From an uncultured Hyphomicrobiales bacterium (GTDB lineage: Bacteria; Pseudomonadota; Alphaproteobacteria; Rhizobiales; Beijerinckiaceae): a DNA stretch of 61,023 nt. A program made the position numbers and the translations under genes. The stretch is taken from assembly GCA_903851305.1 (NCBI GenBank), contig CAINNX010000065.1:1-61023 (forward strand), read 5' to 3'. This document shows, one piece after another, positions 33,711 to 54,556 of the stretch. Position 1 is the stretch's first letter, and every line of letters starts with the position of its first letter. A model generated the notes under the pieces. That model was not told where the DNA came from and made no database searches. It saw nothing but the letters and a program-made list of their open reading frames with translations.

Positions 33711-34544
33711 TCAGCCTTCCGCGATAAATTTCATGCGATGCTCTTTATAGAGATCGAGAATAGCTGCGGTAGTTTCTTCAATTGAACGTCGTGTCACATC
33801 AATCATTGACCAGCCGCGTTCAGCAAAAAGTCTCTTAGATTGAGCTATTTCTGCAGCGACTGCCGTTCGATCTACATATGGGCTTTCTTGATCGGCGTTC
33901 AAAGCGAGAAGCCTATTTTGACGGATTTGCACAATCCGCTCTGGTGAAGCAATCAAGCCAACAATCAATGGTCGCTTCAGCTTTTCTACAAAGGGCGGCA
34001 AAGATACGCCTGGTACGAGCGGAATATTGGCCGTCTTAATCCCGCGATTTGCAAGATAAATACTGGTTGGTGTTTTGGACGTGCGGCTCACTCCAAGCAA
34101 AAGAACATCTGCCTCTTCGAGATTTTCAACTTGCTGTCCGTCATCGTGCATCATGGTATAATTTAGCGCATCGATACGCCGAAAATATTCCGCATTCAGC
34201 ATATGCTGGGCGCCTGGGCGTGATGTTTGTGCCGTGCCGAGATAGGACTGAAACATACCGAAAATCGGTTCCAAAACTGACAAACATGGACTTCCACATT
34301 CGCGGCAGGATTCAACCAAAACGCTGGTTAATTCCGGATCAACCAAGGTGAAAAGAACAATCCCGGGCGCTGACTCAATTTCAGCAATAGCCCTGTCCAG
34401 CTGCGCTCTAGTTCGCAGCAATGGGTAGACATGCTCGATTGATGATACGCCCTGAAACTGTGCTGTCACAGCCCGACTGACTGCAATTAGGGTTTCACCC
34501 GTCGCATCTGAAACTAAGTGAAGATGAAAATAATTACGTCCCAC
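33711..34544 (-). CDS. ppsR: PEP synthase/PPDK regulatory kinase-phosphorylase (DUF299)
   Basis: Bifunctional kinase and pyrophosphorylase that switches PEP synthetase or pyruvate phosphate dikinase off and on. The 277-residue protein opens NYFHLHLVSDATGETL and has the P-loop GVSRTSKTPTSIYLANRG and NIPLVPGVSLPPF. The start is GTG at 34544. In Caulobacter and relatives a member of this family lies next to the replication origin, as here. Confidence 0.93.
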   Translation of the reverse strand: MGRNYFHLHLVSDATGETLIAVSRAVTAQFQGVSSIEHVYPLLRTRAQLDRAIAEIESAPGIVLFTLVDPELTSVLVESCRECGSPCLSVLEPIFGMFQSYLGTAQTSRPGAQHMLNAEYFRRIDALNYTMMHDDGQQVENLEEADVLLLGVSRTSKTPTSIYLANRGIKTANIPLVPGVSLPPFVEKLKRPLIVGLIASPERIVQIRQNRLLALNADQESPYVDRTAVAAEIAQSKRLFAERGWSMIDVTRRSIEETTAAILDLYKEHRMKFIAEG

Positions 34545-34773
34545 AATCTATCCATGCATTTGGCCTGTCCACAAAGCCTGTATGACTGGGGACAAGTTTG
34601 GAAAAAGGATCAACCAGGGCACAACTTCGAATTTCCATCTCGCGCTAGCCCGGATTTCTATTAACATTAAAGACATAGAGACACGGAAAGCCAGTAGGGC
34701 CGTGGGTAAACTGGATTATGGTGACAAGCTGTTAGTTGTTTTACGGATACTCGGGATCGACTTATTGTTATCC

Positions 34774-34788
34774 TTAAGCTTTTATTAA
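34774..34788. promoter_or_regulatory. CtrA box inside oriC
   Basis: TTAA-GCTTTTA-TTAA is an exact match to the full CtrA consensus TTAA-N7-TTAA. It is directly followed by the DnaA-like CCATCCACA and overlaps TTATCCTTA on its left. In Caulobacter CtrA silences the origin from such sites in swarmer cells. The same use here is inference. Confidence 0.7.
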
Positions 34789-34829
34789 CCATCCACAGCC
34801 TCAGGAAGAGCTGTTGATCTGTGAGGATG

Positions 34830-34838
34830 CGTGGATAA
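34830..34838 (-). promoter_or_regulatory. DnaA box (TTATCCACG on the minus strand)
   Basis: CGTGGATAA on the plus strand differs from the consensus TTATCCACA at one position only. It is the best DnaA box in the putative origin. Confidence 0.65.
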
Positions 34839-34946
34839 ATAAGACTTAGCCTGTTCACTAATTGGCACCACGGTATTCTGGGGGCTAATAAGAAGAAGAA
34901 AAAGATCAAAAGATCTTTGAAGGTTTTTTTAAGGGACAAGTGGAAA

Positions 34947-35987
34947 GTGTCGCATAAACCGGAAAACAAGCTTTTCATTCAAGCTCTAGATGGACAATCG
35001 AGCTCGATCCCTCCTTTATGGATGATGCGCCAAGCTGGCCGTTATCTTCCCGAATATAGAGAGATCAGAGCAACAGTTCCGACCTTTCTTGATTTTTGTT
35101 ATTCTCCAAAATTAGCGACAGAAGCCACTCTTCAGCCCATTCGACGGTTTGGCTTTGATGCTGCAATTCTGTTTAGCGATATTCTCGTAGTACCTGACGC
35201 CTTAGGACAGAAAGTCAGCTTTGAGCAGGGCGAAGGACCCCGTTTACCCCCAATAGAAGATCTAGCTGGTCTCGCAGCCTTACGTGACCAGATTGATCTT
35301 GAAAGATTAAGTCCGGTTTTTGAGACAATCGACAGGCTTAAGACAGCTCTTCCTTCTGCAACGTCTTTGATTGGTTTTTGTGGTGCACCTTGGACTGTTG
35401 CCAGTTACATGGTAGCTGGCCGGGGGACACCAGACCAAAAACCTGCACGCCTCTTTGCATATCAAAAACCTGATTTATTTCAGAACCTTATCGATCTTTT
35501 GGTACAAGCATCCATCGATTATTTGGAGAGACAATTCGAAGCGGGAGTTGAATCTGTTCAAATTTTTGATTCATGGGCCGGCGTTTTGCCTGTTACCGAA
35601 TTTGAGAGATGGTGTCTCAAACCTATTTCAGATATCACTGCTGGGCTCAAAGCTCGGGTGCCACATGCCCGCGTGATTGCATTTCCTAGAGGGGTAGGGT
35701 CCCATCTGGAGGCTTTTATAAGTCATCCTGGAATTAATGCTCTTGGCCTCGATACATCAGCTGACCTGACTTGGGTTGCGCAACAAATCCACCCAAAAAA
35801 GACAGTTCAAGGAAACCTTGATCCTTTGGCATTGATTGCCGGAGGACGAGCATTGGATCAAAGTGTTGATCGCATCAAATCGGCGTTCTCTGGTCGCCCC
35901 TATATTTTCAACCTAGGTCACGGGATCACCCCTGAGACGCCGATTGCCCATGTGGAGCAAATGGTTGCCAGGGTCAGAGCAAAGTGA
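34947..35987 (+). CDS. hemE: Uroporphyrinogen decarboxylase
   Basis: Decarboxylates uroporphyrinogen III to coproporphyrinogen III in haem synthesis. The 346-residue protein has PPLWMMRQAGRYLPEYREIR, the family loop with catalytic arginine and the later aspartate in FSDILVVPDALG, and FCGAPWTVASYMVAG. GTG at 34947 was chosen; a TTG at 34917 would extend it by 10 codons. It abuts oriC. Local base composition is clearly more AT-rich than in the flanking operons. Confidence 0.95.
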   Translation: MSHKPENKLFIQALDGQSSSIPPLWMMRQAGRYLPEYREIRATVPTFLDFCYSPKLATEATLQPIRRFGFDAAILFSDILVVPDALGQKVSFEQGEGPRLPPIEDLAGLAALRDQIDLERLSPVFETIDRLKTALPSATSLIGFCGAPWTVASYMVAGRGTPDQKPARLFAYQKPDLFQNLIDLLVQASIDYLERQFEAGVESVQIFDSWAGVLPVTEFERWCLKPISDITAGLKARVPHARVIAFPRGVGSHLEAFISHPGINALGLDTSADLTWVAQQIHPKKTVQGNLDPLALIAGGRALDQSVDRIKSAFSGRPYIFNLGHGITPETPIAHVEQMVARVRAK

Positions 35988-36415
35988 TGACTTATCTCTG
36001 GCTGAAGACGTTGCACATCCTAGCTGTCATCTCTTGGATGGCGGGATTGCTCTACCTTCCCCGGTTATTCGTTTATCATTGTGGTTTAGCTTCTGGTTCA
36101 GAGACTGCACGTCTGTTTGAATTGATGGAATACCGGCTTTACCGATTTATTATGACGCCAGCACTTGTTGTTGCCTGGCTGACGGGCCTCTATATGGCCT
36201 CGGTTTCTGGCTTTTGGCTTGAAGCTTGGTTTATCAGTAAATTTGTCCTGATTATTCTTATGTCCGGCGTCCATGGCTTTTTAGGGCGTCTGCGCAAAGA
36301 CTTTGTGGCCGGGATTAATTCCCGCAGTGATCGTTATTTCCGTGTGCTCAACGAAGTCCCAACCCTCCTGATGATCTTTATAGTCGCTTTAGTGGTCATC
36401 AAACCCTTTGGTTGA
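35987..36415 (+). CDS. hemJ: Protoporphyrinogen IX oxidase HemJ
   Basis: Membrane protein for the penultimate haem step in organisms without HemG or HemY. The 142-residue protein has four membrane segments, LWLKTLHILAVISWMAGLLYLPRLFVYH with the conserved His10, and the conserved lysine in WFISKFVLIILMS. The start overlaps the hemE stop by one base (TGATG), so it is translated with hemE, the step two enzymes earlier in the pathway. Confidence 0.92.
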   Translation: MTYLWLKTLHILAVISWMAGLLYLPRLFVYHCGLASGSETARLFELMEYRLYRFIMTPALVVAWLTGLYMASVSGFWLEAWFISKFVLIILMSGVHGFLGRLRKDFVAGINSRSDRYFRVLNEVPTLLMIFIVALVVIKPFG

Positions 36416-39260: not shown

Positions 39261-39276
39261 TGTTTCACGTGAAACA
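39261..39276. promoter_or_regulatory. parS: parS centromere site 1 (TGTTTCACGTGAAACA)
   Basis: Exact 16-bp palindrome of the chromosomal ParB-binding site. It lies in the 78-bp gap between mnmE and the mnmG ATG, 4.3 kb from the putative oriC and 3.4 kb upstream of parB. Confidence 0.95.
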
Positions 39277-41184: not shown

Positions 41185-41825
41185 GTTCCGCTGAGCTTGA
41201 GAGGCTGGTTCTCTTATTAGATCTGAAACCGGTCGATTTGGATCGTATGAAAGTCTATGAAGGCTTGGTCCGAAAGTGGTCGAACGTCAAAAATCTTGTC
41301 TCTGCTTCAGCCCTGGCTGATTTATGGGTCCGCCATTTGTTAGATTCGGCTCAGGTTCAGCGCGCATTCCCTAAAGTCAAACAATGGGCCGATCTTGGTT
41401 CTGGTGGGGGATTTCCTGGGGTTGTCACCGCAATATTGCTGGCCGATGTGCCAGGTTCGCATGTCCATATGGTTGAATCTGATGGTCGCAAATGCGCTTT
41501 CCTGCGGGCTGTTTCACGTGAAACAGGTCTGCGCACCACGGTGCATCATGCGCGCATCGAAACTGTGGTAACGGATTTGGACCATATCGAAGCGGTCAGC
41601 GCTCGGGCTTTAGCCGAGATGGACAAGCTTGTGGAATGGGCCACACCTTTTATCGAAAAGGGCGCGATTGGTGTCTTTCCAAAGGGTAAAGGTCATCGGG
41701 AAGAATTGACCAAACTATCAATGGATAGTAGGTTCAACCTAGAGATACGCCCCAGTATTAGTCAATCTGATGGGGTGATCGTCTTGGTCAGTAGACGTGA
41801 CCCTTTGGGTGGAGACGTGTCGTGA
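41181..41825 (+). CDS. rsmG: 16S rRNA (guanine527-N7)-methyltransferase RsmG
   Basis: SAM-dependent methyltransferase, 214 residues, known as GidB. It has [45 protein letters not shown] (SAM loop) and [17 protein letters not shown]. The second parS site lies inside it and encodes VSRET at residues 111-115, so the centromere site is built into the reading frame. It overlaps parA by 4 nt (GTGA). Confidence 0.96.
41510..41525. promoter_or_regulatory. parS: parS centromere site 2 (TGTTTCACGTGAAACA), inside rsmG
   Basis: A second exact copy of the 16-bp ParB palindrome, 2.25 kb from the first and 6.6 kb from oriC. It lies in coding sequence of rsmG. Two perfect copies in one origin-proximal region fit a ParABS centromere. 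Confidence 0.95.
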
Positions 41826-42631
41826 GTACTCCGGAAATGCGGGTTTTGGTTCTCGCTAATCAGAAGGGTGGCGTCGGTAAAACGACCACGACGATTAATC
41901 TCGGCACAGCTTTGGCTGCGATTGGCGAAAAAGTTCTCATCATTGATCTCGACCCACAGGGCAATGCGTCGACCGGGCTTGGAATTGACCGCAAAAGCCG
42001 TGACCGCTCCACTTACGATGTGATGACTGGTGAGCGTCGATTTACAGACGTCATTCAAGCTACCGCAGTGCCTCGCCTCTGGGTTGCGCCATCGACCTTG
42101 GATCTTTTGGGGGTGGAGCTTGAGATTGCAGGAGATAAGGATCGCGCCTTTAAGATGCGCACCGCTATTCAAGAGCTGGCAGCAACGGTTTTGGGAGAAG
42201 AGCGCTTTACCTATGTTCTTTTTGACTGCCCACCATCCTTAAATCTATTAACAATCAATGCTTTAGCAGCTGCTGACGCTGTTTTAGTACCTCTCCAATG
42301 TGAGTTTTTTGCACTCGAGGGGCTTTCACAGTTGCTCTCGACGGTTGATCAAGTCAAAAAAACACTCAACCCTAAACTTTCAATTCATGGCATAGTTTTG
42401 ACCATGTTTGACCCCCGCAATAATCTGGCAACACAGGTTGTTGCCGACGTGCGTCAGTTTATGGGGGAGAAGGTTTATGACACCGTGATCCCACGCAATG
42501 TTCGCGTGTCTGAGGCCCCCTCCCACGGCAAGCCGGTCTTGCTTTACGATCTCAAATGCACGGGCAGCCAAGCCTATTTGAAGCTGGCATCCGAAGTGAT
42601 CCAGCGCGAACGCCGCTTGCGCGCCGCCTGA
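41822..42631 (+). CDS. parA: Chromosome-partitioning ATPase ParA (Soj)
   Basis: Deviant Walker-type ATPase that moves ParB-parS complexes. The 269-residue protein has LANQKGGVGKTTTTINLGTAL (signature lysine plus P-loop), IDLDPQGNASTGLG, FDCPPSLNLLTINALAAADAVLVPLQCEFFALEGLSQLL and a C-terminal basic helix. GTG at 41822 overlaps the rsmG stop; ATG at 41837 is an alternative start. Confidence 0.97.
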   Translation: MSTPEMRVLVLANQKGGVGKTTTTINLGTALAAIGEKVLIIDLDPQGNASTGLGIDRKSRDRSTYDVMTGERRFTDVIQATAVPRLWVAPSTLDLLGVELEIAGDKDRAFKMRTAIQELAATVLGEERFTYVLFDCPPSLNLLTINALAAADAVLVPLQCEFFALEGLSQLLSTVDQVKKTLNPKLSIHGIVLTMFDPRNNLATQVVADVRQFMGEKVYDTVIPRNVRVSEAPSHGKPVLLYDLKCTGSQAYLKLASEVIQRERRLRAA

Positions 42632-42650
42632 TATTTAGAAAGGGCCTTAA

Positions 42651-43535
42651 ATGGCAGAGGAATCACGTCCACGACTTGGTCGCGGTTTGGCGGCGCTCAT
42701 TGGCGATTCGGCTCCGGAACCATCAGCTGTGGCACCCGCGACCGGACAAAAACGCGTCCCAATAGAATTTATTCGTCCTAACCCGCGCAACCCGCGGCGT
42801 TCGTTTGATGACGAGAATCTTACAGAACTATCTGATTCTATTAAGGAAAAAGGCGTTATCCAGCCAATTATTGTGCGCGCTATCCCGCGTACAGCTGACG
42901 CTTATGAAATCATTGCTGGCGAACGTCGGTGGCGTGCAGCGCAAAAAGCGGGGGTCCACGAGGTCCCAGTCGTGATTATCGAGGCGGATGACAAGCAAGC
43001 GCTTGAAATCGCGATTATTGAAAATGTTCAACGCAGTGATCTCAATGCCATTGAAGAGGCCTTGAGCTACGAACAACTGGCCAATGAATATACCTATTCA
43101 CATTCGGATATTGCGAAGATCATCGGCAAAAGCCGCAGCTACATTGCCAATACAATGCGTTTGCTGAAGCTTCCGGCTTCTATTCATCAGATGCTCAAAG
43201 AAGGCCTTCTCTCGGCAGGTCACGCTCGAGCCCTATTGTCAGTCGATGATGCCGAATCGCTTGCGAAACGGATTGTCGCAGAGAGCCTGACGGTTCGCGA
43301 TGTTGAACGACTAGCGAGCGAAGCAGGAAAACCAGCAGGCACAACTAAAAAGCCTAGTGAGGGCACCAAAACCAAAACTCCGAAAGACGCCGATACACGC
43401 GCGCTCGAAAAGGCACTCAACGATGTGCTTGGAATGAATGTTTCGATTGCGCACGAGGGTGAGTCCGGTTCGGTCACCATCTATTATACGTCACTCGAAC
43501 AGCTCGATGCGCTTTGCCAAAGGCTGAAATCTTAA
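42651..43535 (+). CDS. parB: Chromosome-partitioning protein ParB (Spo0J), CTPase family
   Basis: Centromere-binding protein, 294 residues. It opens RPRLGRGLAALIGD (ParA-interacting N-tail) and has the ParB/Srx nucleotide domain with IRPNPRNPRR, IKEKGVIQPIIVR, IAGERRWRAAQKAG and IENVQRSDLNAIEEA, where CTP is expected to bind. The HTH AKIIGKSRSYIANTMRLLKLP and a C-terminal dimer domain follow. Its targets are the two parS sites just upstream. It is tail-to-tail with holA, sharing TTAA. Confidence 0.97.
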   Translation: MAEESRPRLGRGLAALIGDSAPEPSAVAPATGQKRVPIEFIRPNPRNPRRSFDDENLTELSDSIKEKGVIQPIIVRAIPRTADAYEIIAGERRWRAAQKAGVHEVPVVIIEADDKQALEIAIIENVQRSDLNAIEEALSYEQLANEYTYSHSDIAKIIGKSRSYIANTMRLLKLPASIHQMLKEGLLSAGHARALLSVDDAESLAKRIVAESLTVRDVERLASEAGKPAGTTKKPSEGTKTKTPKDADTRALEKALNDVLGMNVSIAHEGESGSVTIYYTSLEQLDALCQRLKS

Positions 43536-54541: not shown

Positions 54542-54556
54542 TTAATGCCTGTTTAA
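54542..54556 (-). promoter_or_regulatory. CtrA box upstream of ftsK
   Basis: TTAA-TGCCTGT-TTAA (plus strand) matches the full CtrA consensus. It lies 78-92 bp upstream of the ftsK ATG, a normal position for a CtrA-controlled promoter. ftsK is cell-cycle regulated in Caulobacter; transfer of that logic is inference. Confidence 0.6.

Follow-up and report, generated by a model that had tools for sequence, protein, structure and literature searches.

The 402 bp that separate a ppsR-like gene from hemE in a freshwater bacterium raise two questions: whether this gap is the chromosomal replication origin, and whether replication from it could be gated by CtrA. The genome comprises 2.76 Mb in 186 contigs, and the window referred to below is the whole of one of these (C65), with a length of 61,023 bp. 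By HemE, its nearest named relatives are Beijerinckiaceae MAGs, order Hyphomicrobiales (best: L023, 91% identity). The features relevant to the origin assignment are as follows.

33711 to 34544, minus strand: ppsR-like gene, an open reading frame (ppsR matches in 49 of the 61 genomes searched, this one included)
34545 to 34946, no strand: putative chromosomal oriC, the ppsR-hemE gap (skew extremes, 48 distinct two-gene loci, same-genus skew sign change)
34947 to 35987, plus strand: hemE, with a GTG start
39261 to 39276, plus strand: parS TGTTTCACGTGAAACA, a perfect motif match
41510 to 41525, plus strand: parS TGTTTCACGTGAAACA, a perfect motif match
41822 to 43535, plus strand: parA (41822-42631) and parB (42651-43535), open reading frames named by reading the sequence

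The names ppsR and hemE for the flanking open reading frames were carried over from the earlier note and are presumed here, and we likewise take the parS motif used to identify both TGTTTCACGTGAAACA sites to be correct. The GTG at 34947 is the hemE start and is kept in 8/8 aligned sequences, which supports the 402-bp length of the gap. A minus-strand open reading frame of 103 aa (34667-34978), which also covers the CtrA box described below, was taken to be spurious.

The earlier note had proposed the gap as a putative oriC, a reading against which a GC-skew minimum elsewhere would have counted. Over the 61-kb window, cumulative GC skew reaches its minimum at 34578, AT skew its maximum at 34969 and keto skew its minimum at 34693, all three inside the gap or at most 25 bp from it. 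The GC-skew minimum of this contig alone is thus found in the gap; to the right of the gap the window GC skew is unsteady, declining again between 42 and 54 kb. We also sampled a 5.94-Mb contig of the same genus (G022) in 20 stretches of 20 kb each. All 11 stretches between 1.5 and 4.42 Mb have negative GC skew. The remaining nine, which run from 4.6 Mb to the contig end and over the first 1.2 Mb, have positive GC skew, with one value of only 0.003; the change from minus to plus between 4.42 and 4.60 Mb thus brackets the ppsR gap at 4.517 Mb. AT skew follows a less regular course across the 20 stretches. In the window, parAB and the pair of perfect parS sites are located 4–9 kb from the gap, and two parS matches were obtained in none of 100 shuffles, even with three mismatches allowed. 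Given the skew extremes, the nearby parS and parAB and the same-genus sign change, the original proposal is borne out and the 402-bp gap is very probably the chromosomal oriC, its place being directly supported by skew, parS and synteny. Both parS sites are within coding sequence, in mnmG- and gidB-like open reading frames (named by reading), and both proteins read V-S-R-E-T there. A rival origin at dnaA, which is present in the genome on another contig, was set aside on its DnaA-box content, no consensus box being found in the 3.3 kb around dnaA.

The two flanking genes are adjacent in 48 distinct loci of Hyphomicrobiales, and 47 of 80 hemE loci have no ppsR within the sequence stretch covered. 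The earlier note held that the ppsR/oriC/hemE location and the overlap of CtrA and DnaA sites mirror Caulobacter Cori. Adjoining sites are indeed present, but the neighbourhood is not particularly Caulobacter-like, given the 48 in-order loci, nor is it universal. Ten ppsR loci of the window's genus (L091, L094, L095, L097, L101-L105 and L108) have no adjoining hemE, so hemE is elsewhere or missing in part of this genus. What follows the gap in those ten loci is a small membrane open reading frame like that at 35984-36415 of the window and/or a rho-like one.

Within the gap, the elements that could serve an origin and its control are these.

34565 to 34573, plus strand: second consensus DnaA-type box, CTGTCCACA, fitting the Caulobacter DnaA consensus
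34774 to 34788, plus strand: CtrA-type box TTAA-N7-TTAA, TTAAGCTTTTATTAA, a perfect match
34789 to 34797, plus strand: DnaA-type box CCATCCACA, fitting the Caulobacter DnaA consensus and abutting the CtrA box
34774 to 34797, plus strand: composite TTAA-N7-TTAA-N3/4-TCCACA, subject of an exact pattern search of family genomes
34830 to 34838, minus strand: weak DnaA-like box TTATCCACG, outside the Caulobacter DnaA consensus
34886 to 34946, no strand: AT-rich stretch by base composition, a candidate unwinding element with two 13-mer-like repeats (34895 and 34903, minus strand)

The CtrA-type box, the DnaA-type box abutting it and the minus-strand box have the sequences and lie at the places that the earlier note had given for them. 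The consensus applied to the DnaA-type boxes is [TC][TCG][AG]TCCACA, as stated for Caulobacter in the available part of PMC2877005. With two consensus boxes and the AT-richest 60-mers of the whole window, which begin at 34886 and 34887, the gap has both the several DnaA boxes and the AT-rich element of an oriC. Two or more consensus boxes arose in 5 of 20,000 dinucleotide shuffles of the gap; smaller runs had no such shuffle in 5000 and one or more in another 300, where the box count peaked at 2. Further sequences with at most two mismatches from TTATCCACA are, besides CTGTCCACA at 34565, TTGTCCCCA at 34587 (minus), TTTTCCAAA at 34597 (minus), TTACCCACG at 34701 (minus) and TTATCCTTA at 34768. 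The 13-mer-like repeats resemble GATCTNTTNTTTT with two mismatches, and such matches total 21 in the window; the AT-rich stretch in which they lie overlaps the hemE leader. One perfect CtrA box and one sequence with a single mismatch (34918-34932) were found in the gap, in place of the several CtrA sites of a Cori-type origin; the adjoining of a CtrA box and a DnaA box is shared with that type.

There is no GANTC in the gap, as the earlier note had observed in setting it apart from Cori. The absence is true, but the difference was rejected as meaningful: shuffles give an expectation of only 1.4, so that a count of zero means little, and GANTC is over-represented in the ppsR gaps of relatives (182 against 112.7 in shuffles, 58 loci). 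A GANTC at the origin, as would mark an origin influenced by CcrM, is thus lacking, though ccrM pieces are present in the genome. The whole window is poor in GANTC (129 against about 278 expected).

A perfect TTAA-N7-TTAA appeared in 2.5% of 5000 and 2.2% of 20,000 dinucleotide shuffles of the gap, and none of the 20,000 contained both a perfect CtrA box and at least two consensus DnaA boxes. The CtrA box alone is therefore moderately surprising, and its significance comes from its conservation, as seen in a footprint, a spacing control and a composite element. The footprint alignment comprises the window and its seven nearest relatives, with pairwise gap identities of 47-71%. Across the seven relatives, identity to the window is 98% at the eight TTAA positions, 53% at the seven spacer positions and 55% over the whole gap; among the 357 positions at which this spaced pattern was placed in the alignment, just one other scores equally high. 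A single base of the second half-site differs in one relative (L085). Both copies of TCCACA, 34792-34797 and 34568-34573, are invariant in 8/8 aligned sequences, as is AATAAGAA in the AT-rich stretch, and the core GTGGA of the TTATCCACG box is kept in 6-7 of 7 relatives per column while its flanks vary. Conserved CtrA half-sites with an adjoining DnaA core are thus directly supported.

The spacing control covered 58 loci, with the 420 bp ahead of ppsR taken from each. They are the loci with ppsR from the hemE and ppsR searches (the 47 hemE loci without it drop out), after removal of duplicates (L001, L082, L003, L004, L005, L018 and L023); near-identical species stay among the 58, and the loci are not independent. 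Spacing 7 was found in 32/58 loci and every other spacing from 0 to 20 in four or fewer, while 300 shuffles gave a mean of 0.45 and a maximum of 4 for spacing 7. The box lies 200-270 bp from the ppsR start in 29 of these 32 loci. Its carriers include Methylocella tundrae, M. silvestris TVC, Rhodoblastus sp. 17X3, three Bosea, two Chelatococcus, Labrys okinawensis (at 58 bp) and MAGs of Tepidamorphus, Aquabacter and Methylovirgula; the perfect box is absent from the loci of Methylocapsa aurea, M. palsarum and Phreatobacter, and from 13/29 loci with ppsR above 76% identity. Another 66 in-order loci show spacing 7 within 500 bp in 24 cases and any other spacing in four or fewer. Forty of these, about one per family (four families appear twice, and G043 was left out as it has only 390 bp upstream of ppsR), show spacing 7 in 14/40 within 420 bp and other spacings in four or fewer, against a shuffle mean of 0.74 and maximum of 4; placement is looser here, with 8 of the 14 boxes at 189-285 bp. 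On a ppsR tree (FastTree) of 84 loci, 36 of which have the box at 150-300 bp, box presence changes 17 times, and label shuffles require 27.3 changes on average and at least 21 (none of 500 had as few as 17). Box presence is clustered on this tree.

Outside the order, a ppsR match was present in 169 genomes, of which 66 were used (26 search loci and 40 more). Spacing 7 was found in 11/66 within 500 bp and in 10/66 within 420 bp, against a shuffle mean of 0.76. Within 420 bp, the box is present in 3/13 genomes without a ctrA match (E 1e-60) and in 7/53 with one, four of these 53 matches scoring below the family cut-off; at 180-300 bp, limits that were set post hoc, the counts are 0/13 and 5/53. 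An extension of the trait to the whole class was dropped, as this smaller excess of spacing 7 does not clearly follow ctrA.

An exact search for the composite in 397 Beijerinckiaceae genomes returned 13 matches, one per genome, and three for the reversed control. Ten of the 13 are beside ppsR, five in the window's genus and five in four other genera, and the remaining three have no ppsR within the sequence stretch covered; the ten genomes with a ppsR-side composite contain no second exact composite anywhere. As the gap makes up about 400 bases of a multi-megabase genome, 10/13 is a strong origin-specific signal. The 397 genomes are a draw that omits at least two known carriers (L083, which is G019, and L088, which is G026). 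The exact composite is absent from 384/397 genomes and is a minority trait in Beijerinckiaceae; given this, and the 13 of 29 close loci without a box, neither box nor composite is indispensable.

The presence of cell-cycle genes is directly supported. The earlier reading of CtrA at this origin would have been undermined by a genome lacking ctrA, and ctrA is present (420 bits against a cut-off of 350, profile search). Over 202 residues its product is 86% identical to a Caulobacter CtrA reference sequence, and residues 148-202 are identical. A chpT-like gene (PF10090, 130.9 bits) was also found, so that both ctrA and a phosphorelay gene are present, as in a Cori-type system. A gcrA match is above the cut-off for PF07750 (175.9 bits) and below the cut-off of 280 for NCBIfam GcrA (173.4 bits). 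The ccrM gene is broken by contig ends (G000:C54 and C2; L277 and L276), its two pieces matching CcrM positions 2-95 and 108-349 of 350, each below the full-length cut-off. The perfect TTAA-N7-TTAA occurs at 12 places in the 2.76-Mb genome, against 25 for the reversed pattern. Apart from the one in the gap, nine of the 11 boxes are outside the longest open reading frames (one touches such a frame by a base) and two are within one. Their neighbours include ftsK and ftsZ (both named by reading), lpxC, cpaB, dnaN together with a class A penicillin-binding protein, and bacA, whose box falls within an N-terminal extension that precedes the Pfam match. On our reading, this set looks like a CtrA regulon that includes the origin.

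Judging from these sequence comparisons, we consider it probable that the gap is the oriC of a small-genome Beijerinckiaceae and that CtrA at its box excludes DnaA from the abutting box, thereby gating replication. DnaA would bind weak TCCACA-type boxes and open the AT-rich stretch by hemE, and phosphorylated CtrA would bind the single perfect TTAA-N7-TTAA box; once bound, CtrA would bar DnaA from the abutting box, and replication would stay off until CtrA was removed or dephosphorylated. Because the DnaA box starts at the base next to the CtrA box, CtrA should exclude DnaA from it. Such exclusion is the simplest reading by analogy with Cori, where CtrA sterically excludes DnaA and both G-boxes are close to or overlap CtrA sites, according to the available part of PMC4468827. 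CtrA binding, DnaA binding, their competition and a gate acting once per cycle or under stress are what we infer for the window. Counting against this reading are the single perfect CtrA box where Cori has five sites, the relatives without box or composite, the unclear tie to ctrA outside the order, the lack of CtrA binding at the Sinorhizobium meliloti origin and the irregularities of the skews. The same part of PMC4468827 describes Caulobacter with CtrA affinity lowered at all five sites, in which the normal replication programme was only mildly disturbed and sensitivity to antibiotic pulses was seen; given this result, a genuine site, too, may serve chiefly as a gate under stress.

The main rival to gating keeps the gap as oriC and has a real CtrA box act on transcription, as part of a promoter of hemE, ppsR or the next gene. 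CtrA boxes are often located at promoters, nine of the 11 other perfect boxes are outside the longest open reading frames and near such genes as ftsK, lpxC, dnaN with its penicillin-binding protein neighbour and cpaB, and the box in the gap has the hemE GTG 158 bp away on one side and the ppsR start about 230 bp away on the other. Both distances, however, exceed what is usual for a -35 site; the box and the DnaA core at N3-4 are conserved together, and the composite is unique in the ten ppsR-side carrier genomes. Moreover, 6/10 same-genus loci without an adjoining hemE retain the box, 203-256 bp from ppsR, which weakens the case for a hemE promoter but does not speak against every promoter. 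We regard a purely transcriptional role as unlikely. It is still more improbable that, in an oriC at this place, TTAA-N7-TTAA serves another factor or merely aids unwinding as AT-rich sequence. The box is AT-rich, and three of 13 genomes without a ctrA match outside the order carry it; against this, spacing 7 alone is enriched, the half-sites stay while the spacer drifts, CtrA matches the Caulobacter protein throughout residues 148-202, and the three boxes of ctrA-less genomes all fall outside the 180-300 bp range that was set post hoc. A chance match in an origin under DnaA alone, for which the 2.2-2.5% of gap shuffles with a perfect box might speak, was rejected as hardly credible in view of the spacing control and its shuffles (32/58, 14/40 and 10/66 loci against means of 0.45, 0.74 and 0.76), the eight-member footprint and the clustering on the tree.

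Cori adjoins hemE in Caulobacter crescentus, as the gap does in the window. In Rickettsia prowazekii, which belongs to another order, CtrA and IHF sites have reportedly been described at oriC; the IHF sites are without counterpart in the ppsR-hemE gap, where the IHF consensus with at most one mismatch was not found. Sinorhizobium meliloti belongs to the same order as the window's host. It has ctrA, but no CtrA motif and no CtrA binding at its chromosomal origin, according to the available part of PMC4433202. Cori resembles the gap in its CtrA sites near or overlapping weak DnaA boxes and its linked par locus (PMC4468827, available part) and in the TCCACA-type DnaA consensus (PMC2877005, likewise). 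By its published description, Cori has five CtrA sites (PMC4468827, in the part available), whereas the window gap has one perfect box, with a DnaA box directly abutting it and no GANTC, in a member of the Hyphomicrobiales and not the Caulobacterales. In Hyphomonas neptunium, of yet another order, a CtrA ChIP-seq signal is described at a site next to the origin (PMC7200025, available part). In the part available, the 2015 review states that CtrA sites had been unseen at origins beyond the caulobacters and perhaps Rickettsia (PMC4468827). Within the open-access literature, seen in part, we found no report of a CtrA site at the origin of Beijerinckiaceae or other Hyphomicrobiales; a report on Brucella or another member may exist in subscription papers.

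That CtrA represses the Caulobacter origin is textbook knowledge, and the conserved boxes extend CtrA sites at origins to Hyphomicrobiales. The earlier note's suggestion of a Caulobacter-like CtrA site in a genome of rhizobial type proved right, the organism falling within that order. The fused arrangement was thought nearly confined to Caulobacter-like bacteria, and here it is seen in many relatives of rhizobia. We are evenly divided on a broader reading, in which direct CtrA control of the origin would be an old trait of Hyphomicrobiales: one box, at a nearly constant distance of about 200-270 bp from ppsR, would have disappeared from some lines, Sinorhizobium among them, and in several Beijerinckiaceae genera would have joined a DnaA box almost base-to-base as a one-piece off-switch, unique in such carrier genomes. 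If true, the position-fixed box in many Hyphomicrobiales origins would make the age and loss of the switch testable, and the window would hold a minimal, one-box form of CtrA/DnaA competition. Bosea, Chelatococcus, Methylocella and Rhodoblastus are genera with named strains in which this could be tested.

Three further sites bear on CtrA elsewhere in this genome. The window's sole other perfect TTAA-N7-TTAA (54542-54556) is 78 bp upstream of an ftsK-like open reading frame (named by reading), which suggests CtrA control of a division gene. Another perfect CtrA-type box, at G000:C34:26770-26784 (L283), has dnaN on one side at 42 bp and the gene for a class A penicillin-binding protein on the other at 73 bp, and might connect CtrA with the replication clamp. 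No more than 2 kb separates ctrA from the chpT-like gene (G000:C170:2900-7242), and upstream of ctrA on this contig there is a CtrA-like TTAACAGACCGTTA together with a GANTC cluster.
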